Assembly: GCA_003280445.1 (NCBI GenBank)
Contig: QCEW01000003.1
Coordinates: 39,477-103,476 of the forward strand
Reading direction: 5' to 3'
DNA length: 64,000 nt
Origin: Prochlorococcus sp. AG-363-A03
GTDB lineage: Bacteria > Cyanobacteriota > Cyanobacteriia > PCC-6307 > Cyanobiaceae
Both the position numbers and the translations under genes were made by a program. The notes under the pieces are model-generated. The model ran no database searches. It was not told the origin of the DNA and saw only the letters and a list, made by a program, of their open reading frames with translations. Positions 51,988 through 63,630 of this stretch are shown here, in pieces (position 1 is the first letter of the stretch; every line of letters starts with the position of its first letter).

Positions 51988-52026
51988 AAAAAAAGAGTCT
52001 CGTCAAATGACGAGACTCTTTTTTTT
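51988..52026. terminator. bidirectional Rho-independent terminator between the small ORF and pcb copy 4
   Basis: aaaaaaagagtctcgtcaaatgacgagactctttttttt. Confidence 0.88.
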
Positions 52027-52044
52027 GCTTAAAGAATCAGATAA

Positions 52045-53133
52045 TCAATCAGTGAGAGTAACTCTTGCTCCATCAAGATTACTAATTGCATCAGTAACTT
52101 TTTTAAAATCAAAGCCTAAAGCACGTATTGCATGCCACAGGTGTCCTTGAATAAAGAAGAAACCAAGATAGTAGTGAACATTCGCAAGCCAAGCTCTTGA
52201 AGTATGTCCACTAACAACACCAGTCATATCAGCAGTATCAATCCAATATGGAGAGATTCCAAACTTTAAAGCTAATGTTTCTCCATACCAAGCCTCTGGG
52301 TAAACAGTTGTATTGGTTGCACACCAGAAAGCGGCAATAATTGCCATCCAACCAATACCAGCAAGAGACCATGAAAGAACTGCTTCAGCGGAAAGAATGT
52401 TCTTCCCTTTGAATTCCGTATACTCGCCTACTTGCTTAGTAGCGATATGAAATGCTCCACCTGTGATCTCAACAAATGCTAAGAATGCATGACCACCCAT
52501 AACATCCTCAAGACTATCAATAGCCAAGAAATCAAACTGATGGTTCCAAATGTTGGTCAAGTTTAAGTTGTACTCGACTTGTCGAACAGCTCCAATTGCA
52601 GGATCGTAAATCCCATGAATTCGAGCCCACTCAACAAACCAAATACATGCAACACCAAAGAAAATCAAATGGTGACCAAGAATAAAAGTCTGATTGTCTG
52701 GATTATCCCATTCAAGCTTGTATCTTGCTGCCTGACGATGTTCAGGACGATCATCAGCAAACAAACCTGAACTATTTTGGGTATCTTCGCTAAAAATCAG
52801 AGAGTGCAATAGACCTGCACCCGCATAAACCATTGAACAAATCAGATGGAATACGCCGATAAAAGCAATTGATGTTCCGTCGAATACTGTTCCAGTTGGA
52901 TCAAATCCAATACCAATAGAAGCAAGATGTGGGATGCTCACCATTCCTTGGTGTCCCATTGGAATATCTGGGTTGTATCTAGCGAGCTCCCAAAGTGTGT
53001 TGGCACCAGCTGCGAAACAAATCAATCCTGTATGAGCAACATGCGAGCCAATAAATCGGCTTGACTTATTTGTTACGACAGAATTACCAACCCACCACCC
53101 GTAGGTGACGTCTGGGTTTCCGTAGGACTGCAT
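52045..53133 (-). CDS. pcb: chlorophyll a/b-binding light-harvesting protein Pcb, copy 4
   Basis: MQSYGNPDVTYGWWVGNSVVTNKSSRFIGSHVAHTG...; carries a longer loop SEDTQNSSGLFADDRPEHRQAARYKLEW than the other copies. Confidence 0.95.
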   Translation of the reverse strand: MQSYGNPDVTYGWWVGNSVVTNKSSRFIGSHVAHTGLICFAAGANTLWELARYNPDIPMGHQGMVSIPHLASIGIGFDPTGTVFDGTSIAFIGVFHLICSMVYAGAGLLHSLIFSEDTQNSSGLFADDRPEHRQAARYKLEWDNPDNQTFILGHHLIFFGVACIWFVEWARIHGIYDPAIGAVRQVEYNLNLTNIWNHQFDFLAIDSLEDVMGGHAFLAFVEITGGAFHIATKQVGEYTEFKGKNILSAEAVLSWSLAGIGWMAIIAAFWCATNTTVYPEAWYGETLALKFGISPYWIDTADMTGVVSGHTSRAWLANVHYYLGFFFIQGHLWHAIRALGFDFKKVTDAISNLDGARVTLTD

Positions 53134-53333
53134 AATTGAGGAAATTGAAGTCGAAATTCGACCTACCTTACATTTAGTGCAATAAATTTGCTTGAAATCG
53201 TAAAAGGTCTTTATTTAATCCACAAAAACAATCAATAGAAGAGCTGTAATTATTCATTGATTTTGCCTACAAAAGTAGTATAAAAAGGGATTTGAGAATC
53301 CTCGCTAAATATCAGTCAATTTTTTAATCAAAA

Positions 53334-53359
53334 AAGCCCCGCAAAAGTTACGGGGCTTC
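53334..53359 (-). terminator. Rho-independent terminator of pcb copy 5
   Basis: aagccccgcaaaagttacggggctt; the T-tract lies on the minus strand downstream of the gene. Confidence 0.75.
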
Positions 53360-53385
53360 AGAGATTCTCCAATCAATTGAATTAG

Positions 53386-54450
53386 TTAGTCATTAAGAGT
53401 AATTTGTGCCCTATCTAAACCAGCGACAGCATTTGTAACTCTCCTAAAGTCAAAGCCTAAAGCACGAATGGCGTGCCATAAGTGACCTTGCAAAAAGAAG
53501 AATCCAAAATAATAATGGACATTTGTTAAAGCAGCTCGTGTTGTGTGGCCTGCTAATGCAGTGCTCTCATTTACATCTACAGTATCGATCCAATAGGGAG
53601 AAATACCAAATTTCAAAGCCAACGGTTCTCCAAACCAAGATTCGGGATAAACAGTTGTATTTGTTGCGCACCAGAATGCTGCGACAATGGCCATCCAACC
53701 AATACCTGCCAATGAGAAAGATAAAACAGCCTCGGCAGAAAGGATATTAGCTCCTTTAAATTCTGTGTATTCTCCAACCTGCTTCGTAGCGATATGGAAA
53801 GCACCACCAGTTATCTCAACAAATGCTAAAAACGCATGGCCGCCCAAGACGTCTTCAAGATTATCAATAGCTAAGAAATCAAACTGATGATTCCAAATAT
53901 TTGTCAAATTAAGATTGTACTCAACTTGTCGAACAGCTCCTATTGCTGGGTCATAAATTCCGTGAATTCTGGCCCATTCAACAAAAGCAATACAAGCGAC
54001 TCCAAAGAAAATCAGGTGATGACCCAAAATAAAGGTCAAATTATCAGGGTTGTCCCATTCAAGTTTGAATTTTTGAGTAGTAGGTCCTGGCCCATCAGCT
54101 AAATCCCCATCAAAGAGTAGAGAGTGAGAAAGAGCTCCTCCTGCATAAACAAGAGAAGCAATAATATGGACTATTGCTACTGAAGCAACATTCGCTCCAG
54201 TCCAAACACCTGCATCATCAAATCCAATACCAATAGATGCGAGATGAGCAAGAAAAATAGAACTTTGATGCCCCATTGCTATGGAAGGATCAAACCTTGC
54301 TAACTCCCAAAGAGTGCTGGCTCCAGCAGCAAATGAAATTAGGCCCGTATGACCTGCATGAGCTGCAATAAACTTTCCAGCGCGGTTAGTAACCCTTGAA
54401 TTGCCAGCCCACCACCCGTAGGTGACATCTGGATTTCCATAGGTCTGCAT
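53386..54450 (-). CDS. pcb: chlorophyll a/b-binding light-harvesting protein Pcb, copy 5
   Basis: MQTYGNPDVTYGWWAGNSRVTNRAGKFIAAHAGHTG...; IsiA/Pcb/CP43 family. Confidence 0.95.
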   Translation of the reverse strand: MQTYGNPDVTYGWWAGNSRVTNRAGKFIAAHAGHTGLISFAAGASTLWELARFDPSIAMGHQSSIFLAHLASIGIGFDDAGVWTGANVASVAIVHIIASLVYAGGALSHSLLFDGDLADGPGPTTQKFKLEWDNPDNLTFILGHHLIFFGVACIAFVEWARIHGIYDPAIGAVRQVEYNLNLTNIWNHQFDFLAIDNLEDVLGGHAFLAFVEITGGAFHIATKQVGEYTEFKGANILSAEAVLSFSLAGIGWMAIVAAFWCATNTTVYPESWFGEPLALKFGISPYWIDTVDVNESTALAGHTTRAALTNVHYYFGFFFLQGHLWHAIRALGFDFRRVTNAVAGLDRAQITLND

Positions 54451-54928
54451 ATGAAATCAGGAGGAATATATTTTTTCCACACTACAAGTTAGTAGACTTT
54501 TTAACTATCTAAAATACAAAAAAACCGGCAATGATTAATAATCTAATATTATTTTATACCAGTACATAAGTAAAACTTAACAGTAAGTTAGGTAATCAAT
54601 TATACAAAACAAGATAGCAGGATAAGTTGAATATTTTAATCCAAGTTATTAGATAAGTTCTACTTAACAATTGACAATTTTTTTGTTACTGGAAGAGAGC
54701 AAGCACTCTTCCAGTGTTGACAGAGAAACGAACTTCGACTTCAATTCCTATCAACATGATCTGTCATAACAAAAATAAATCCTGAGTGCGAGAACAAATA
54801 ATTCATTTCATACATCCAAAACAAATTTATTGGCAATTGCTTTTTAAGAAATCTAATAAAAATCCTAGGGATATACGTACCTAATTATTTAGAAATTACA
54901 TCTAAAGTGTATTCAAAGATGTTATGGG

Positions 54929-55174
54929 ATGATAAATAAAGAGTTAAGTATTGCAGAAGTTGATCGCGTCATAGAAATGGCATGGGAAGATAGGACTCCT
55001 TTCGATGCGATCGCTTTTCAATTCAACCTTAAAGAGCAAGAAGTAATTCAGCTAATGCGAGGAAGTTTAAAACCATCTTCATTCAAAATTTGGAGAAGAA
55101 GAGTTTCAGGTAGGAAGTTGAAGCATGGATTCCCAGATCAGAAAATAAGATTCAAATCACCAAACCAAAAGTGA
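54929..55174 (+). CDS. DUF2805/TIGR03643-type protein
   Basis: [62 protein letters not shown]. Confidence 0.88.
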
Positions 55175-55314
55175 AACTTAAATTGACAAAAAAATGCCCA
55201 AAGTGCCAAAGAGACTTTCAATGGAGAAAGAAATGGTCTAAGGGCTGGGAAAATGTCATTTATTGCTCTGAAAGATGTCGAAGAAGAAAAAACAAAGTTA
55301 ACTGTGCTGAATAA
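55171..55314 (+). CDS. DUF2256-type zinc-ribbon-like protein (47 aa, not in the ORF track)
   Basis: GTG at 55171 overlapping the previous stop (gtga): [47 protein letters not shown]; two CxxC/CxxxC pairs. Confidence 0.85.
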
Positions 55315-55413
55315 ATTCTTCGCATTAAAAACAAATTTTAGTTATTTTTAATCAACACAATTAGCTTCTTAGATGCTTATCAAGAAGTAAATCTTTTTTT
55401 CTAAGCAAGAACA

Positions 55414-56904
55414 GTGAAAAAAATATTCCTAATTTTTCCAAATCAATTATTTAAAATAAAAAAGCAATTTCTTGAGATTGAACACATTGCTTTAATCCAA
55501 GACAGTTTATTTTTCGGATCTGATAGTCAATGGAAGCAAAGATTTCATTGTCAAAAAATTATTTTCCATAAAGCGACCATGGACTATTACGAAGAAAGAC
55601 TAAAAAAACAAGGTCTTAGTGTGATTTATATAAAGCATAAAAGAGAAACAAGGACAGAGGATAATCTTAATTATCTATTTGAAAAAGGTTTTAATCATTT
55701 TATTACTTACGAAGCATTTGATTGGTCACTAGAAAAAAGGACAAAAGATTTCACATTAAAAAATAATATCAAATTAGACATAATAGCAAGTGAAATGTTT
55801 TTAACTTGCAAGGATATATATGAAGAAGTCCTTAATCAAAAAAAGATTCATGGCATGCAAAAATTCTATAAGGGTCAAAGACAAAACCTGAATATTCTTA
55901 TTGAAAAAAATGGTTCTCCTACTGGGGGCGCATGGAGTTTTGACAAAGTTAACAGAAAGAAGTTACCAAGGTCAATCAAAGTACCAATAATAAAAAATAT
56001 AAAAACAAACAAGTTTTTAGCTAAAGCGAAGAAAGATATTTCTATTAATTATGGGGAATATTATGGGAGTCATGAAAACTTTAATTATCCGATATCTCAT
56101 AAAGATGCAGAAGAATGGTTAGATAATTTTTTAATTGAAAGATTAAATTTATTTGGAGATTACGAAGATGCAATACATTCAAGCCATAGGACACTTTGGC
56201 ATAGTGTTCTTTCTCCATTAATTAATTCAGGATTACTTACCCCGAGACAAATAATAGATAAATCTTGGGATTTTTATCAATCCAATAATATTGGGATTAA
56301 TTCCTATGAAGGATTTGTTAGACAAATTATTGGCTGGCGTGAATTTATCCTATTAATGTATAGACGTAATGGTGTAGAACTAAGAAATGGAAACTTCTGG
56401 GATTTTGAGGATAAAGCAATACCATCTAGTTTTTACACTGGTCAAACAGGGATAAGGCCTTTAGACGACTCAATAAAAAATATTTTAGATACCGGATATG
56501 CTCATCATATAGAAAGACTAATGATAGTTGGAAATTTAATGCTTCTATGCAGATTCCACCCAAACCAAGTATACAAATGGTTTATGGAGTTATTTATAGA
56601 TGCATATGATTGGGTTATGGTTCCAAATGTTTATGGAATGAGTCAATTTTCAGATGGAGGTCTATTTACAACTAAACCATATATTTCAGGCTCCAATTAT
56701 ATCCGAAAAATGTCTAACTATAAATCTGAAGAATGGTGTTCAACTTGGGATAGTCTTTTTTGGACATTCATAGATGATTATAAAAATAAATTTAAAGACC
56801 AAAATCGATTGTCCATGATTTTAAGAAACCTAGAAAAAATGGAACCTAATAAAAAAATGACTCACAGACGTAAAGCTTATGATTTTATTTCTAGACTAAC
56901 TTAA
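55414..56904 (+). CDS. deoxyribodipyrimidine photolyase-related protein (FeS-BCP/(6-4) photolyase-like family)
   Basis: IFPNQLF start, SHRTLWHSVLSPLINSGLLTP, EGFVRQIIGWREFILLMY, HHIERLMIVGNLMLLCRFHPNQVYKWFMELFIDAYDWVMVPNVYGMSQFSDGG, C-terminal CSTWDSLFWTFI. GTG start. Confidence 0.92.
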   Translation: MKKIFLIFPNQLFKIKKQFLEIEHIALIQDSLFFGSDSQWKQRFHCQKIIFHKATMDYYEERLKKQGLSVIYIKHKRETRTEDNLNYLFEKGFNHFITYEAFDWSLEKRTKDFTLKNNIKLDIIASEMFLTCKDIYEEVLNQKKIHGMQKFYKGQRQNLNILIEKNGSPTGGAWSFDKVNRKKLPRSIKVPIIKNIKTNKFLAKAKKDISINYGEYYGSHENFNYPISHKDAEEWLDNFLIERLNLFGDYEDAIHSSHRTLWHSVLSPLINSGLLTPRQIIDKSWDFYQSNNIGINSYEGFVRQIIGWREFILLMYRRNGVELRNGNFWDFEDKAIPSSFYTGQTGIRPLDDSIKNILDTGYAHHIERLMIVGNLMLLCRFHPNQVYKWFMELFIDAYDWVMVPNVYGMSQFSDGGLFTTKPYISGSNYIRKMSNYKSEEWCSTWDSLFWTFIDDYKNKFKDQNRLSMILRNLEKMEPNKKMTHRRKAYDFISRLT

Positions 56905-56974
56905 TAATTTCCACTTAGCTACTTAACTTATCAACTCCTATTATCTATGTCTAGGTACTGTTCTTACCCAAAAT

Positions 56975-57015
56975 AGAGCTCTCGAAAAGAAGAGAGCTCT
57001 TTATAATAAATTTTT
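56975..57015 (+). terminator. probable terminator downstream of the photolyase-related gene
   Basis: agagctctc gaaaagaa gagagctct followed by a T/A-rich stretch. Confidence 0.6.
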
Positions 57016-57026
57016 GATTAAATATA

Positions 57027-57479
57027 GTGAAACTGAAAGTTGGCGATAAGATTCCATCATTTTCATTGAAAGATCAAAATGGAAACATCAGAACATCAAA
57101 TAAACTGAGTAGGTCTCTGGTTTTGTTTTTTTATCCAAAAGACGATACTCCTGGTTGTACTATCGAGGCATGTGGCTTCCGCGACAAATATGATCTTTTT
57201 AAAATACTAGGAGCTGAGGTGTGGGGGATAAGTAATGGAAGTACACAAAGTCATCTTGGATTTGCGAATAAAAATAAACTTCAGTATCCATTACTTTGCG
57301 ACCAAAACAACATTCTTAGGAAACAATTCGGTGTACCAAAAAAGCTGGGATTCATCGAAGGAAGAGTAACATATATAATAAATTCCGAAGGAATAATTAA
57401 ACATATTTTCGAAGACCTTTTAAATGGTCCAGCTCATATAAAAGAAGCTATAAAAGCATTAAAGAAACTTCAATACTAA
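57027..57479 (+). CDS. peroxiredoxin, BCP/PrxQ type
   Basis: KVGDKIPSFSLKDQNGNIRTSNKL...LFFYPKDDTPGCTIEACGFRDKYDLF. Confidence 0.95.
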   Translation: MKLKVGDKIPSFSLKDQNGNIRTSNKLSRSLVLFFYPKDDTPGCTIEACGFRDKYDLFKILGAEVWGISNGSTQSHLGFANKNKLQYPLLCDQNNILRKQFGVPKKLGFIEGRVTYIINSEGIIKHIFEDLLNGPAHIKEAIKALKKLQY

Positions 57480-57504
57480 GACAAAATTCAAAATTAATAA
57501 TCAT

Positions 57505-58620
57505 ATGAATATTTTCGAAGAAGCTAATAACGTATTAGATGACTTTATTGAAAATAACCTTGTGTCATACCATCAGCTAAGAAATTACGATTATGGGATA
57601 GAAAATAGGACTAATGTTTCTCAGATTTCTAAATATACATCTCATAGAATTCTTTACGAATACGATATCGTGAAAAAATTAAAAAAGTTTGACAAGAAAC
57701 AAAAGTATACTGATGAAATTCTCTGGAGGATTTACTGGAAGGGTTATCTTGAAAATTATAAATCAATATGGTTTGAATATATAAATTTCAAAGAAAACTC
57801 ACATAATTTAAACTTAATTAATTCTGCGATTGATGGAAAGACAGGTATAGATTGCTTTGACTCATGGATAGAGGAGCTTAAAGAAAATAATTATCTACAT
57901 AATCACTCAAGGATGTGGTTTGCAAGTATTTGGATTTTTACTTTGGGACTTCCATGGCAACTAGGAGCAAGGCTTTTCATGAAACACCTATTTGATGGGG
58001 ATGCTTCGTCAAACACTCTTAGCTGGAGATGGGTAGCTGGTATGCACACAAATAAGAAGCCTTACTTAGCATCCAAAGAAAACATCGATAAGTATACAGT
58101 TAATAGATTTAAGAAGACTCAAATTAGCATATCGAGAAATGTTAATGTTATCAAAAATAATCAACATCAATCAAATAAACTTCCAGTTCAATTTCGTTTA
58201 CCTAAGAGCAATATTCTATTAATGTTCGATAATGATATGAATATTTTGAACAGATTTGAATTATTTAATTCATACTCAAAGGTTTATATATTGAGTAATG
58301 GAATCATCAACGATGTATTTAAGCTAAGCGAAAAAGTAATTCAATTCAAACTAGGCTTAATTGAAAATATAAATAAATTAATCCCAAACTCAGAAGTAAT
58401 AAAATCAACTGACATAGATATCTTTTTCTATGATAAAAAGTATATTGATGTTATCTACCCGGGAGTTGGGCATAACCTAGATTTAATAAACACATATGCC
58501 AATCAAAATCAAATTACCATTAATTATATATACAGAAAAGAAGATCTTAAATACTGGGATTATGCAAATTCAGGATTTTACAAATTTAAGAAATCATTTT
58601 ATAGACTTAACAAAATTTAA
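57505..58620 (+). CDS. photolyase/cryptochrome-like FAD-binding domain protein lacking the N-terminal antenna domain
   Basis: YTSHRILYEYDIVKKL, TDEILWRIYWKGYLE, TGIDCFDSWIEELKENNYLHNHSRMWFASIWIFTLGLPWQLGARLFMKHLFDGDASSNTLSWRWVAGMHT; then about 145 aa of unrelated-looking C-terminal region. Confidence 0.85.
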   Translation: MNIFEEANNVLDDFIENNLVSYHQLRNYDYGIENRTNVSQISKYTSHRILYEYDIVKKLKKFDKKQKYTDEILWRIYWKGYLENYKSIWFEYINFKENSHNLNLINSAIDGKTGIDCFDSWIEELKENNYLHNHSRMWFASIWIFTLGLPWQLGARLFMKHLFDGDASSNTLSWRWVAGMHTNKKPYLASKENIDKYTVNRFKKTQISISRNVNVIKNNQHQSNKLPVQFRLPKSNILLMFDNDMNILNRFELFNSYSKVYILSNGIINDVFKLSEKVIQFKLGLIENINKLIPNSEVIKSTDIDIFFYDKKYIDVIYPGVGHNLDLINTYANQNQITINYIYRKEDLKYWDYANSGFYKFKKSFYRLNKI

Positions 58621-58718
58621 AACCTAATAAATAATATTAAAATAATTCAAACATAATAATCCTAACCTACACAATCATATCAAATCGTAATTATAATAAA
58701 TTAAATGTTTAAAGATTT

Positions 58719-59621
58719 ATGGTTAGATTAAATGAAATCAAGAGTCAAAATGGAAAAATATTCTTAATCACTGGAGCAAATAGCGGCCTTGGTTATGAAA
58801 CAACAAAATTCCTTCTAGAAAAGGGGGCAACAGTAATCATGTGCTGCAGAGACTTACGTAAAGGAGAGAAAGCAAAAAAAGAACTTTCAAAATTAAGTTT
58901 TCCTGGGAAGATTGAGCTAGTTGAATTAGATTTATCCGATTTAAAAAATGTTGAAAAAATTGCTGAATTTATAAAAAATGAATTTAATCACTTAGATGTT
59001 TTAATAAACAACGCTGGAATAATGGCTCCTCCTAAGACTTTTAGCAAGCAGGGCTTCGAAATACAATTTGCTGTTAATCATCTTGCTCACATGTTTTTAA
59101 CGTTGGAACTATTACCAATGCTTGAAGAGAAAAGTAATTCTAGGGTTGTCACCGTAACCTCGGGCGTTCAATATATTGGGAAAATTCAATGGGATGATCT
59201 ACAAGGAAATCTTAAATACAATCGTTGGGCTTCATATGCGCAGAGCAAACTTGCAAACGTAATGTTTGGCTTGGAGCTCAACTCAAGACTTAAAGAACGC
59301 AATTCACAAACATCTTCACTACTAGCTCATCCGGGATTTGCTCGTACAAATTTACAACCAAATTCGGTTAAAGCGAATCAATCATGGCAAGAAGAACTTG
59401 CCTATAAATTAATGGATCCAATGTTTCAAAGCGCGAAAATGGGTGCTTTGCCTCAAATAACAGCCGCTACATGGTCTAACGCTAAAGGAGGAGAACAATA
59501 TGGTCCTAGGTTGAACTTCAGAGGGTTTCCAAAAAAATGCAGAAATGCACCAAAAGCACTAAACCAAACTTCAAGAAAAAAATTATGGGAAATAAGCGAA
59601 AAGCTTATAAATAATATTTAA
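58719..59621 (+). CDS. short-chain dehydrogenase/reductase
   Basis: FLITGANSGLGYETTKFLLEKGATVIMCCRD, INNAGIMAPP, YAQSKLANVMF. Confidence 0.93.
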   Translation: MVRLNEIKSQNGKIFLITGANSGLGYETTKFLLEKGATVIMCCRDLRKGEKAKKELSKLSFPGKIELVELDLSDLKNVEKIAEFIKNEFNHLDVLINNAGIMAPPKTFSKQGFEIQFAVNHLAHMFLTLELLPMLEEKSNSRVVTVTSGVQYIGKIQWDDLQGNLKYNRWASYAQSKLANVMFGLELNSRLKERNSQTSSLLAHPGFARTNLQPNSVKANQSWQEELAYKLMDPMFQSAKMGALPQITAATWSNAKGGEQYGPRLNFRGFPKKCRNAPKALNQTSRKKLWEISEKLINNI

Positions 59622-59628
59622 TCTCCTC

Positions 59629-60219
59629 TCAAAGAAAAGAAACCAACGCTTCTCCTTTATCACATATTTCTTGCTGTGAAGGGCATGCTGTCATTCCAGT
59701 CCAACTGATTAGGCCTTTTCTAATTGAACAATTACATTTATCCTCACCGGTTAATTCATTAAGTTCTTTCCCGGTCCAAGGAGTGGCATCATCATTAAGC
59801 ATTATTTCTTTCAATCTTTCATAAAAGGGCTTAGTCAACTCATCAAATATTTGTATCGAATGGAGTAAATCATCTAAAGCCTCATATTTATCATAATTTC
59901 TTTTTTCTAATTCTTTGTTAAAAACGCCTCTCATAAATTTTGTACAATTAATCGCTTCTAAATTAGTAAATGGTTTAAAATTCGGGCTTATATATTCCCT
60001 ATTTTTTACTATTGATTCTAGGGACAATAACCTTTTTTCAAAATCCTTAATCTTGTTAACCGAATACAAATTATAATTTTCAATATCATTCTCGGACAAG
60101 GAGTTAGTAACCAAGTCTGTAATATGCTCAGTCAGGCTTTTACCTGACATCATTGCCTGTCGTTTAACTCTAATCAATAAATCTTTCGAGATCTTTATAT
60201 TAAACTGACTTTTAGTCAT
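59629..60219 (-). CDS. protein with N-terminal ribbon-helix-helix-like segment and Cys-containing C-terminus
   Basis: SQFNIKISKDLLIRVKRQAMMSGKSLTEHITDLVTNSL resembles an Arc/MetJ-type RHH; C-terminal CNCSIRKGLISWTGMTACPSQQEICDKG. Confidence 0.6.
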   Translation of the reverse strand: MTKSQFNIKISKDLLIRVKRQAMMSGKSLTEHITDLVTNSLSENDIENYNLYSVNKIKDFEKRLLSLESIVKNREYISPNFKPFTNLEAINCTKFMRGVFNKELEKRNYDKYEALDDLLHSIQIFDELTKPFYERLKEIMLNDDATPWTGKELNELTGEDKCNCSIRKGLISWTGMTACPSQQEICDKGEALVSFL

Positions 60220-60305
60220 GTATACATAAACATCACTGATTAAACTATAATCATTTCTTTACTAATAACAACAGTATGTATGGCTAAAAATATTCTCAAG
60301 GCAAC

Positions 60306-60367
60306 AAATATATAAATTACCTAAACTATTTATGCTAGAAAAAATAGTTTAGATAGTTTATATATTT
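60306..60367. promoter_or_regulatory. 26-nt near-perfect inverted repeat between the transglutaminase operon and the RHH gene
   Basis: aaatatataaattacctaaactattt / atgctagaaa / aaatagtttagatagtttatatattt; 24 of 26 positions complementary. Confidence 0.75.
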
Positions 60368-60374
60368 ACATACG

Positions 60375-61220
60375 TCAAGTAACCTCGATATTCCACTTTA
60401 GTTCACTCTTTACATCGCAAGGCCCAACAAAGCTCCCTCTTACTGGTGCGACCAGTTCAGACTTAGAAGAAGAAGCCAAAGCAACATAATTATGGTTAAT
60501 AAGTCCACAACCACTTGGATCAAAACCTCTCCATCCAAAGCCAGGGATAAAGACCTCTGTCCATGCATGAAGTTCATATTTAGCAGGAGGTTTATCCATA
60601 AATTGATAGCCGCTAACAAAGCGACTTGGGATCCCAACACATCTGCAAGCTTCCATCAACAATATTGCTAAATCTCTACAAGAGCCAACTCTCTCGCTAA
60701 GAGTCCTTCCAGAGTTCCATGCTGGTCCAAGATGTCTTGGAGTATATTTAACTCTATCTTTAATTAATTCAATTAATTGATATAAAAAATCCAATACATT
60801 ATTATTTATTCCCGCTAAAGCTTCTTGCGCGATTTTAATAGCAGCTGGATCATGCTGACCATTCGGAAACCATCCTTTAATAGATCCAATCAATGAATCA
60901 TTGGATTCAATCTTCAAAGGTAAACTTAAATCATAATTATTTTTTAAATTATATAAATCTGGATGAATCATTGTTTCTATATTACTTTCGGCCTTTATAG
61001 AAAATGATTTCGTAGGCTCTGTAAAATACACTCTAAAAGCATTATCACCATTATCTGTAATTAGAGGGAAAATAGTATGTTTAGAGGGGGTAATTTTAAG
61101 CTTGAATTTAGATAATTCCTGAAAGCCATTAGATCTAGGTTTAAGACAAATTAGATGCTCTTCAAGCAATACCGGAATTTCATATGAATAAGCAAGTGTA
61201 TGTATTACTTTCTTTTTCAT
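60375..61220 (-). CDS. transglutaminase-like protein with N-terminal beta region
   Basis: RVGSCRDLAILLMEACRCVGIPSRFVSGYQF...LHAWTEVFIPGFGWRGFDPSGC (Cys-His-Asp triad). Confidence 0.93.
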   Translation of the reverse strand: MKKKVIHTLAYSYEIPVLLEEHLICLKPRSNGFQELSKFKLKITPSKHTIFPLITDNGDNAFRVYFTEPTKSFSIKAESNIETMIHPDLYNLKNNYDLSLPLKIESNDSLIGSIKGWFPNGQHDPAAIKIAQEALAGINNNVLDFLYQLIELIKDRVKYTPRHLGPAWNSGRTLSERVGSCRDLAILLMEACRCVGIPSRFVSGYQFMDKPPAKYELHAWTEVFIPGFGWRGFDPSGCGLINHNYVALASSSKSELVAPVRGSFVGPCDVKSELKWNIEVT

Positions 61221-62191
61221 TCTTGTAAAGATTCAGTATCAAATCTTTGTTCATTAACAAAATAAATTCCATGTATAAGATCATGTAGCTTATTTAAATC
61301 AATTTGAAGACTATCAATAGCCTCATGTAGACCATCTTTAATCAAGTGATCAATTCGTACAAAGCTCCATTTTGATAGCAACAAACCTATTAAACATTCA
61401 AGATCATTGGGCTTCTCGGAAACAGGTGAGTTTTGTATCTTCCCCAAAGATTCCTTAATACCCTCAAGACAAAACCTAACAGATCTTGGAAAAATAGGAT
61501 CTAATAATAAGAAGCTAGCAATTGCATTCGGCTTGATTGATCCTTGCTCAGATATTCTAAACATTTGATAAGCCCCTGCTGATCTTAATAATGAAATCCA
61601 TTGAAGCTCATCTAAAGCTCCGCCAAGTTCTTTTAGATTTGGTAAAAGCAAGAAATACTTTACATCTAATATTCTAGATGTTTTATCTGCCCTCTCAATT
61701 AGTCTTCCTAATTTACTAAAATGCCATGCAATATCATGGCTGAAAGTAGCATCAGTAACACCATAGAATAATTGACATCCTCTTCTAATTTCGAATAATT
61801 GTTCTTGAGAAGGTTGATGCCAGATGACCTCACCTTCCTGAATACTCCAATATAAACTATTAATTTGTTCCCACATTTCAGAAGTTATAACATCTCTAAT
61901 TTGACGGGCATTTTCTCTTGCCATAAAAATACAACTTAAAATGCTGTTTGGGTTTTCTCTATCTTTGATAAGAAAATTTATTACATCCCTAGGAGTTTTA
62001 TTTTTATAAATCTCATCAAAATTATTCCTATCCCCACTTGCGTCGATCAAAGGCAACCATGGTTCAGCACTTCCAGGAGGACAATCTAATGCCATAGATT
62101 CACTAACCTCAACAAATCTAGAAATATTTTCTGCACGTTCTAGATATCTATTAATCCAATAAAGTGATTCAGCGACTCTGCTAAGTAACAT
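61217..62191 (-). CDS. alpha-E domain protein (DUF403)
   Basis: MLLSRVAESLYWINRYLERAENISRFVEV, ARENARQIRDVITSEMWEQINSLYW. Confidence 0.92.
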   Translation of the reverse strand: MLLSRVAESLYWINRYLERAENISRFVEVSESMALDCPPGSAEPWLPLIDASGDRNNFDEIYKNKTPRDVINFLIKDRENPNSILSCIFMARENARQIRDVITSEMWEQINSLYWSIQEGEVIWHQPSQEQLFEIRRGCQLFYGVTDATFSHDIAWHFSKLGRLIERADKTSRILDVKYFLLLPNLKELGGALDELQWISLLRSAGAYQMFRISEQGSIKPNAIASFLLLDPIFPRSVRFCLEGIKESLGKIQNSPVSEKPNDLECLIGLLLSKWSFVRIDHLIKDGLHEAIDSLQIDLNKLHDLIHGIYFVNEQRFDTESLQE

Positions 62192-62196
62192 TGCAA

Positions 62197-63630
62197 TTAT
62201 TGACTAACAACCCAAGTATCCTTGCAACCACCTCCTTGCGAAGAGTTAACAATTAAAGAATCACGTTTTAAGGCTACTCTTGTTAATCCTCCTGGGCTTA
62301 CCCAAGTATTCTTTCCTCGCAAAACATAGGGTCTTAAATCAACATGACAAGGATAAACTTCACCATCACTAAGTGATGGAACTGTAGACAAATCTAAGGT
62401 TGGTTGAGCTATATAATTTCTTGGATTAGCTTTTATTTTTGCTGAAAATCTATCAATATCAATTTGAGAAGAATGTGGCCCAATCAACATTCCATACCCC
62501 CCTGCTTCAGATACACTTTTTACAACTAATTTAGCAAGATTTTCTAGTACAAAATTCAGATCCTTTGATTTTGCACAAACATATGTTTTGACATTATTAA
62601 TAAGTGGTTCTTCTTTTAAGTAATATCTAATCATATCAGGCACAAAAGTATAAATTAATTTATCATCAGCTAGCCCTGTTCCTGGGGCATTTGCAATAGC
62701 CACTCTACCTTTTCTCATTACATCAATAAGCCCTGGGACTCCCAGCATTGAATCTTTTCTAAAAAATTTAGGATCTAAGAAATCATCATCTATTCGACGA
62801 TAAATTACATCAACTTTTTTAATACCAGAAGTAGTTTTCAAATAAACATTTTGGTTTTGACAAACTAAATCAGTTCCCTCTACTAATTGAATTCCCATTT
62901 GCTGAGCTAAGTAACTGTGCTCAAAATATGCGCTATTAAATACTCCAGGAGTCAATAGAACAACTTTTGGGCTATCAGTCCAAACAGCCAATTCCTGTAA
63001 AGATTTCAGCAAGTACGATGGATAATCATCAATAGGCCTAACAACCCTCCCATTAAAAAGGCTGGGGAAAATCCTTTTCATGACTAATCTATTTTCCAAG
63101 AAATAAGCAACTCCTGAAGGGCAGCGAAGATTATCCTCTAAAACCAGCCACTCCCCTTTTCCATCTCTAATAAGATCAAGACCAGATATATGGCACCATT
63201 TCCCTAAAGGAAGAACAAAACCCTGCATTTGAGGTCTCCAGCCATCAGAACTTTCTATAAAATCTCGTGGAATAATTCCATCATTAATTATTTGTTGTTT
63301 TCCATATACATCAGCTAAAAATAAATCTATTGCTTCGAGTCTTTGTATGAGTCCTCTCTCTAAATCCAACCATTCCGAAGAACCAATAACCCTGGGCAAA
63401 GGGTCAAATGGAAGAATCCTTTCGGAACCTTTATTACCAGAATCATTGAGACGGAAAGTTGCCCCATGTCGAAGAAGAAGTTTTCTTGCGATTTCATGAC
63501 TTATGTTCAATTGGTCTAAGCCCATCTCTCTTAAAGAAGAAAGCAATGGCTCTAGAGCTGATCTCGGTAAAAAATCATCAGAGGAAAAGTATTCATCGTA
63601 GCCTGTTTTTGGTTGATAATCTTTAAACAA
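62197..63630 (-). CDS. circularly permuted ATP-grasp type 2 protein (DUF404/407)
   Basis: GLIQRLEAIDLFLADVYGKQQIINDGIIP, SGLDLIRDGKGEWLVLEDNLRCPSGVAYFLENRLVMKRIFPSLF, VVKSVSEAGGYGMLIGPHSS. Confidence 0.94.
   Translation of the reverse strand: MFKDYQPKTGYDEYFSSDDFLPRSALEPLLSSLREMGLDQLNISHEIARKLLLRHGATFRLNDSGNKGSERILPFDPLPRVIGSSEWLDLERGLIQRLEAIDLFLADVYGKQQIINDGIIPRDFIESSDGWRPQMQGFVLPLGKWCHISGLDLIRDGKGEWLVLEDNLRCPSGVAYFLENRLVMKRIFPSLFNGRVVRPIDDYPSYLLKSLQELAVWTDSPKVVLLTPGVFNSAYFEHSYLAQQMGIQLVEGTDLVCQNQNVYLKTTSGIKKVDVIYRRIDDDFLDPKFFRKDSMLGVPGLIDVMRKGRVAIANAPGTGLADDKLIYTFVPDMIRYYLKEEPLINNVKTYVCAKSKDLNFVLENLAKLVVKSVSEAGGYGMLIGPHSSQIDIDRFSAKIKANPRNYIAQPTLDLSTVPSLSDGEVYPCHVDLRPYVLRGKNTWVSPGGLTRVALKRDSLIVNSSQGGGCKDTWVVSQ

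Follow-up and report, generated by a model that had tools for sequence, protein, structure and literature searches.

A probable photoreactivation gene cluster in a low-light Prochlorococcus and the recurrent linkage of DUF2805 and DUF2256 with DPRP photolyases

Photolyases are usually seen as single-protein repair machines, and the question raised by the locus described here is why two very small proteins stand directly ahead of a photolyase gene. The locus lies in a 64,000-nt stretch of contig QCEW01000003.1 (called the window, with positions counted from its first letter) of Prochlorococcus sp. AG-363-A03, whose draft low-light genome (G000) comprises 1.37 Mb and is 77% complete. Six genes occupy positions 54929-59621 on the plus strand in the order DUF2805, DUF2256, Phr2, PrxQ, Phr7 and short-chain dehydrogenase/reductase (SDR). 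It is likely that they form a cluster for photoreactivation of ultraviolet (UV) damage, in which the two small proteins would assist a (6-4)-type photolyase. The new part is the association of DUF2805 and DUF2256 with DPRP photolyases far outside this clade. A pair that travels with a (6-4)-type photolyase gives a testable function to DUF2805 and to DUF2256, which occurs frequently among the small proteins of bacteria. The pair is also relevant to the question of why some (6-4)-type photolyases manage without a [4Fe-4S] cluster, and on the repair of UV damage in the most abundant phototroph of the ocean.

The families were called with Pfam and NCBIfam profiles, and what a sequence-only reading of this DNA had recognised was largely borne out, including six co-directional genes that are all real open reading frames (ORFs) at these positions. 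The two photolyase-superfamily flavoproteins it had proposed are Phr2 (55414-56904; DPRP, 7e-47) and Phr7 (57505-58620; FAD_binding_7, 6e-20; FAD, flavin adenine dinucleotide), while its thiol peroxidase is a PrxQ/BCP-type protein (57027-57479; AhpC-TSA, 7e-32) and its SDR belongs to the PRK06197 subfamily (58719-59621; 9e-90). The first gene encodes an 81-residue DUF2805/TIGR03643 protein (54929-55174; Pfam 2.6e-31, TIGR03643 1.3e-32), which is strongly conserved across genera and phyla and whose structure is hinted at only by a weak match to a NirdL-like helix-turn-helix (HTH) profile (0.009). The second encodes a 47-residue DUF2256 protein (55171-55314; Pfam 1.2e-15, 58 bits against a cut-off of 25). 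Described earlier as Cys-rich and zinc-ribbon-like, it indeed has four metal-type cysteines (C9, C12, C32 and C36) in a zinc-finger-like CPKC...CSERC arrangement, and the family belongs to the TRASH zinc-finger clan (PMC4047054). Its GTG start overlaps the DUF2805 stop as GTGA (55171-55174), just as had been noted, and this overlap is identical in all six aligned genomes.

The start of DUF2805 deserves a separate remark. The window and AG-409-A10 have ATG (54929-54931), where five of seven genomes have an aligned ATT or ATC; in G086 there is no in-frame ATG, GTG, TTG or CTG ahead of the conserved DRxxE segment. Non-canonical initiation, as in infC, is a possible explanation.

To what extent do these genes belong together outside Prochlorococcus? 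Scanning public genomes for DUF2805 gave many matches in Flavobacteriaceae, and about 20 of the loci have DUF2256, DPRP and additional photolyases no more than ~10 kb from it. Among 158 Bacteroidia genomes, DUF2805 is present in 54, DPRP in 53 and DUF2256 in 56, with pairwise phi of 0.73-0.82; the sampled genomes behind such counts are not phylogenetically independent, and the counts are confounded by habitat (lit versus gut). When DUF2256 and DPRP are held by the same Bacteroidia genome, they lie within 10 kb of each other in 23 of 48 cases, always on the same strand (23 of 23) and adjacent in 15, and all three genes fall within 10 kb in 11 genomes. Seven Bacteroidota loci have a NewPHL-type protein touching or beside DUF2805. 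For instance, L182 (G484) carries NewPHL, a photolyase, DUF2805, DUF2256, an iron-sulfur (Fe-S)-less DPRP and SDR on one strand, a content very near that of the window. The trio is also adjacent on two Acinetobacter plasmids, where the DPRP is of the Fe-S type and DUF2805 runs on the opposite strand. In high-light Prochlorococcus, DUF2805, DUF2256 and Phr2 follow a DCC1-like/DUF393 gene in tight or overlapping order, and the three probably form an operon.

Conservation of the DUF2805-DUF2256-DPRP neighbourhood, which the sequence-only reading had named as a check, was thus found in Bacteroidota, Acinetobacter plasmids and high-light Prochlorococcus, so that the trio co-occurs well outside the clade and is linked in three phyla, and the absence of such co-occurrence that would have refuted that reading was not observed. 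Because they accompany one and the same repair enzyme in three phyla that are not related, the two small proteins are good candidates for new partners of the DPRP photolyase, and since the gene orders differ across these phyla, simple shared ancestry of the arrangement is unlikely. The Bacteroidota clusters L112, L182, L184, L188 and L193 resemble that of the window in having DUF2805 and DPRP, mostly DUF2256, an SDR and, in several cases, a NewPHL-type protein, largely on one strand. They differ in their extra photolyases, in the GTP cyclohydrolase I of some and in the subfamily of the SDR, and L112 has a glutathione-peroxidase-like protein in place of PrxQ.

Two loci from this comparison stand somewhat apart. 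In-frame TAG codons occur twice in the DUF2805 of L190 (497-706; G463), next to which lie DPRP and an intact NewPHL-type gene; this DUF2805 is apparently decaying while the photolyases are kept, and another copy elsewhere in the genome is intact. The contig JABSSB010000278.1 (L161), labelled Rhodobacteraceae, bears the trio of high-light Prochlorococcus with the usual degree of identity and is probably mis-binned.

Within the genus, the six-gene order is kept in four of the five other genomes with protein identity of 70-95%, and also in two single-cell genomes (L091 and L092), so the cluster is not a chance arrangement. The fifth, G146 (99% complete), lacks DUF2805, DUF2256, DPRP and full-length Phr7 all together. 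The pcb antenna genes adjoin the cluster, and judging by them and by the relatives that share the cluster, the window genome would belong to an LLI-like group.

Phr2, also called PromaPL, is a prokaryotic (6-4)-type photolyase without an Fe-S cluster. The DPRP antenna domain and the photolyase FAD domain span its full length, and its best PDB relatives are prokaryotic (6-4) photolyases (4e-77), with nearly full-length matches to 9hnk and 4dja. It has none of the four Fe-S cysteines (350, 438, 441 and 454) and therefore falls outside the FeS-BCP subtype. These cysteines are all-or-none in an alignment of 57 homologues, in which all four occur in the proteins of Acinetobacter and in most of those from flavobacteria. 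H365, Y423 and Y429 of Phr2 correspond to His366, Tyr424 and Tyr430 of PhrB and are invariant (57 of 57), Fe-S or not, so that the catalytic His and the lesion-binding Tyr are kept; in PhrB, mutating His366 or Tyr424 abolishes repair and mutating Tyr430 lowers it (PMC4619345). Compared with the FeS-BCP enzymes AfPhrB and CcPL, Phr2 shows full-length homology and the same catalytic His/Tyr set, but it lacks the four cysteines together with the loop that bears them.

Phr2/PromaPL is already known in Prochlorococcus and is assigned to the Fe-S-less subgroup M (PMC9426592, PMC9178010), and disrupting phr2 in Synechococcus RS9916 reduces UV survival (PMC9426592). The window protein matches the Phr2/PromaPL of Prochlorococcus and marine Synechococcus in being an Fe-S-less DPRP with 0 of 4 cysteines, and the picocyanobacterial Fe-S-less proteins, marine Synechococcus included, form one clade (100/100) in a tree from which the PromaPL sequence itself is absent. 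The setting differs, as the window gene lies downstream of DUF2805-DUF2256, whereas phr2 of RS9916 lies downstream of uvrC. One published argument runs counter to our assignment, namely that the Fe-S-less Phr2 is a cyclobutane pyrimidine dimer (CPD) rather than a (6-4) photolyase (PMC9426592). We judge this less likely because the (6-4) catalytic residues are all retained, and from these residues Phr2 would be expected to repair (6-4) photoproducts. In the tree, whose sampling followed DUF2805, the picocyanobacterial clade is nested in a larger Fe-S-less clade (100/100) whose other members are from Bacteroidota, and the Fe-S-type cyanobacterial enzymes, those of Synechocystis and G024, stand at a great distance, which fits an ancient transfer from Bacteroidota and does not prove it. 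As for a phage origin, no phage record matched Phr2, and this idea was dropped.

The photolyase FAD domain of Phr7 is N-terminal and an alpha/beta domain forms the C-terminal part, as in NewPHL-type proteins, and residues 71-189 match FAD_binding_7. An AlphaFold2 model built with 22 sequences (predicted local distance difference test score, 78; predicted template modelling score, 0.79) has a helical FAD domain at 3-197 and an alpha/beta domain at 237-355, and with this model Foldseek matched photolyase FAD domains, covering the FAD domain. In alignment, Phr7 keeps the equivalents of E274, W277, N341, M345, W359, D372, D374, N378, W382 and W384 of E. coli photolyase, which we take to be FAD-holding and CPD-contacting positions, and has His for R342. 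The 'FAD-domain protein' of the cluster is not new, since it is already described as Phr7, a NewPHL-type single-strand CPD photolyase with FAD domain and Z-domain that is reported from every LLI strain and the majority of high-light strains (PMC9426592). NewPHL relatives are reported to split CPDs on single-stranded DNA (Emmerich 2020, as cited in PMC9426592). By analogy Phr7 probably splits CPDs as well. It shares with NewPHL the FAD domain first, the short alpha/beta (Z) domain last and the CPD-contacting residues. Unlike NewPHL, the Prochlorococcus sequences are highly divergent (stem branch of 3.1, joining Synechococcus Phr4-like proteins at only 86/75 with long branches), and the Phr7 of the window shares a cluster with Phr2.

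PrxQ (150 residues) has the peroxidatic and resolving pair C44 and C49 in a C-x4-C arrangement, and its match to PRK09437 (2e-29) lies under the equivalog cut-off. The SDR (300 residues) scores 301 bits against the PRK06197 cut-off of 268.

In the mechanism that we propose, Phr2 would need no Fe-S cluster and would split pyrimidine (6-4) photoproducts by means of reduced FAD and blue or near-UV light, and Phr7, a reverse-architecture photolyase, would probably split cyclobutane dimers. The small, possibly HTH-like DUF2805 and the zinc-finger-like DUF2256 would be made together through translational coupling and would most likely serve the (6-4)-type photolyase as accessory factors that bind DNA or protein, possibly in lesion delivery, stabilisation or regulation. 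PrxQ, by removing peroxide, and the SDR, as an NAD(P)H-dependent reductase, would limit photo-oxidative damage and would probably come from one or two further transcripts. A more far-reaching idea, which we put forward quite tentatively, is that the pair is an undescribed accessory unit used across phyla by DPRP (6-4)-type and NewPHL-type photolyases, with an HTH-like and a zinc-finger partner that recruit or regulate the photolyase at lesions independently of Fe-S. In the open-access literature searched, two papers mention DUF2256 and two DUF2805/TIGR03643, and none of them links either family to photolyases.

Several observations weigh against an accessory role of the pair or against one simple system. 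DUF2256 is near-universal in cyanobacteria, DPRP or not. It is found in 90 of 194 genomes of the cyanobacterial phylum, and 34 of these have no DPRP, so its role in cyanobacteria at large must be wider than DPRP. The tie between DUF2256 and photolyase-like proteins claimed earlier stands as a linkage with DPRP that is not exclusive, and an obligate partnership was rejected. In the window's own family (151 genomes) DUF2256 follows DPRP closely: 73 genomes have both DUF2256 and DPRP, one has DUF2256 alone and nine have DPRP alone (phi 0.87). Habitat or shared ancestry may account for part of the co-occurrence. PrxQ joins the cluster in this clade alone, and the hairpin AGAGCTCT...AGAGCTCT at 56975-57000 is present in the window with arms that are not kept in relatives. 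Phr7 lies away from DUF2805-DUF2256-Phr2 in high-light genomes; near it, ~1.1 kb away on the opposite strand, is an SDR homologue (55%; read in one genome, L086). The suggestion of a single light- or redox-linked system is thus partly supported, by the association of the trio, and the case for all six genes as a unit is unsupported or weaker. Besides, marine Synechococcus has the same families unlinked, with the three genes far apart, the PrxQ-Phr7-SDR part is peculiar to this clade, and DUF2805 also occurs among unrelated neighbours on several plasmids (Vibrio, Nostoc and Pseudoalteromonas). These last three facts are what would be expected if genome streamlining had gathered light and UV genes in a variable region by pcb, with the two DUF proteins as hitch-hikers functionally unrelated to photolyases. 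We consider this unlikely, as three phyla show the trio adjacent independently of one another, with differing orders and orientations, and DUF2256 and DPRP, when within 10 kb of each other in Bacteroidia, never lie on opposite strands.

A regulatory reading would make Phr2 (or Phr7) a cryptochrome-like receptor and DUF2805/DUF2256 its DNA-binding output. The weak HTH match of DUF2805, the zinc-finger clan of DUF2256 and the regulation of photosynthesis genes by the related RsCryB (PMC9178010) point that way, but Phr2 and Phr7 keep the full set of repair residues and phr2 of Synechococcus is a UV-survival gene, which makes a light sensor rather improbable. One of the small proteins might instead mature a metal cluster or cofactor for DPRP photolyases, given that a four-cysteine protein adjoins a family usually carrying [4Fe-4S] and that the Fe-S cysteines are required for soluble PhrB (PMC4619345). 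Since the pair is retained beside Fe-S-less enzymes in Prochlorococcus and Bacteroidota, Fe-S loading was rejected as its general role, and with DUF2256 common in cyanobacteria that have no DPRP, we hold any such maturation factor to be very improbable. Assistance to the (6-4)-type photolyase in repair is the explanation that we prefer.

As for transcription, the hairpin at 56975 had been proposed as a probable terminator that splits the cluster in two. The terminator was rejected, since its arms are unconserved and terminator-like sites are no more frequent than in shuffles (1 observed, 1.9 expected). A split is suggested on other grounds, by conserved -10-like boxes ahead of PrxQ and ahead of SDR that would give two or three transcripts. 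The box of PrxQ, a TATAAT that precedes its start by 20 nt (57002-57007, plus strand; 6 of 6 genomes), is likely a -10 element, and together with a conserved 20-nt block upstream, TGTCTAGGTNNTGTTNTTAC (56948-56967, plus strand), it suggests a second promoter. That block is a regulatory candidate with one copy per genome, including the window, so a regulon motif was rejected. A TATAAT-like box before SDR (58692-58697, plus strand; 6 of 6 genomes) is possibly a separate promoter, and our best guess is three transcription units, DUF2805-DUF2256-Phr2, PrxQ-Phr7 and SDR. The gap between DUF2256 and Phr2 (55340-55412) contains an inverted repeat, CTTCTT...AAGAAG, in 6 of 6 aligned genomes, possibly an attenuator or operator.

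Light-induced photolyase clusters with an SDR and small unknown genes are known in Pseudomonas under LitR control (PMC9758184). The cluster of the window is similar to these LitR/CarH clusters in its photolyase, SDR and small hypothetical genes, the Pseudomonas set, which includes cryptochrome-family genes, being light-induced together. It differs in having no folE, and among the ORFs of 52,000-63,630 no LitR/CarH-type MerR regulator was seen.

Two flanking regions are also conserved. Between the divergent pcb gene and DUF2805, a block of ~145 nt (54688-54835) is nearly invariant in seven genomes of the group; neither a conserved ORF nor an Rfam match was found in it, and its hairpin with two compensated pairs makes it a candidate small RNA or pcb leader. 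Beyond the SDR, a 196-residue protein with a cysteine-containing tail (59629-60219, minus strand) has no Pfam or NCBIfam match over the cut-offs and is 74-78% conserved in four genomes of the clade. Between this gene and a transglutaminase-like gene, at a place where the window, G086, G056 and G110 have no such insert, G130 carries an extra ~2.2 kb (L072, 9160-11374).

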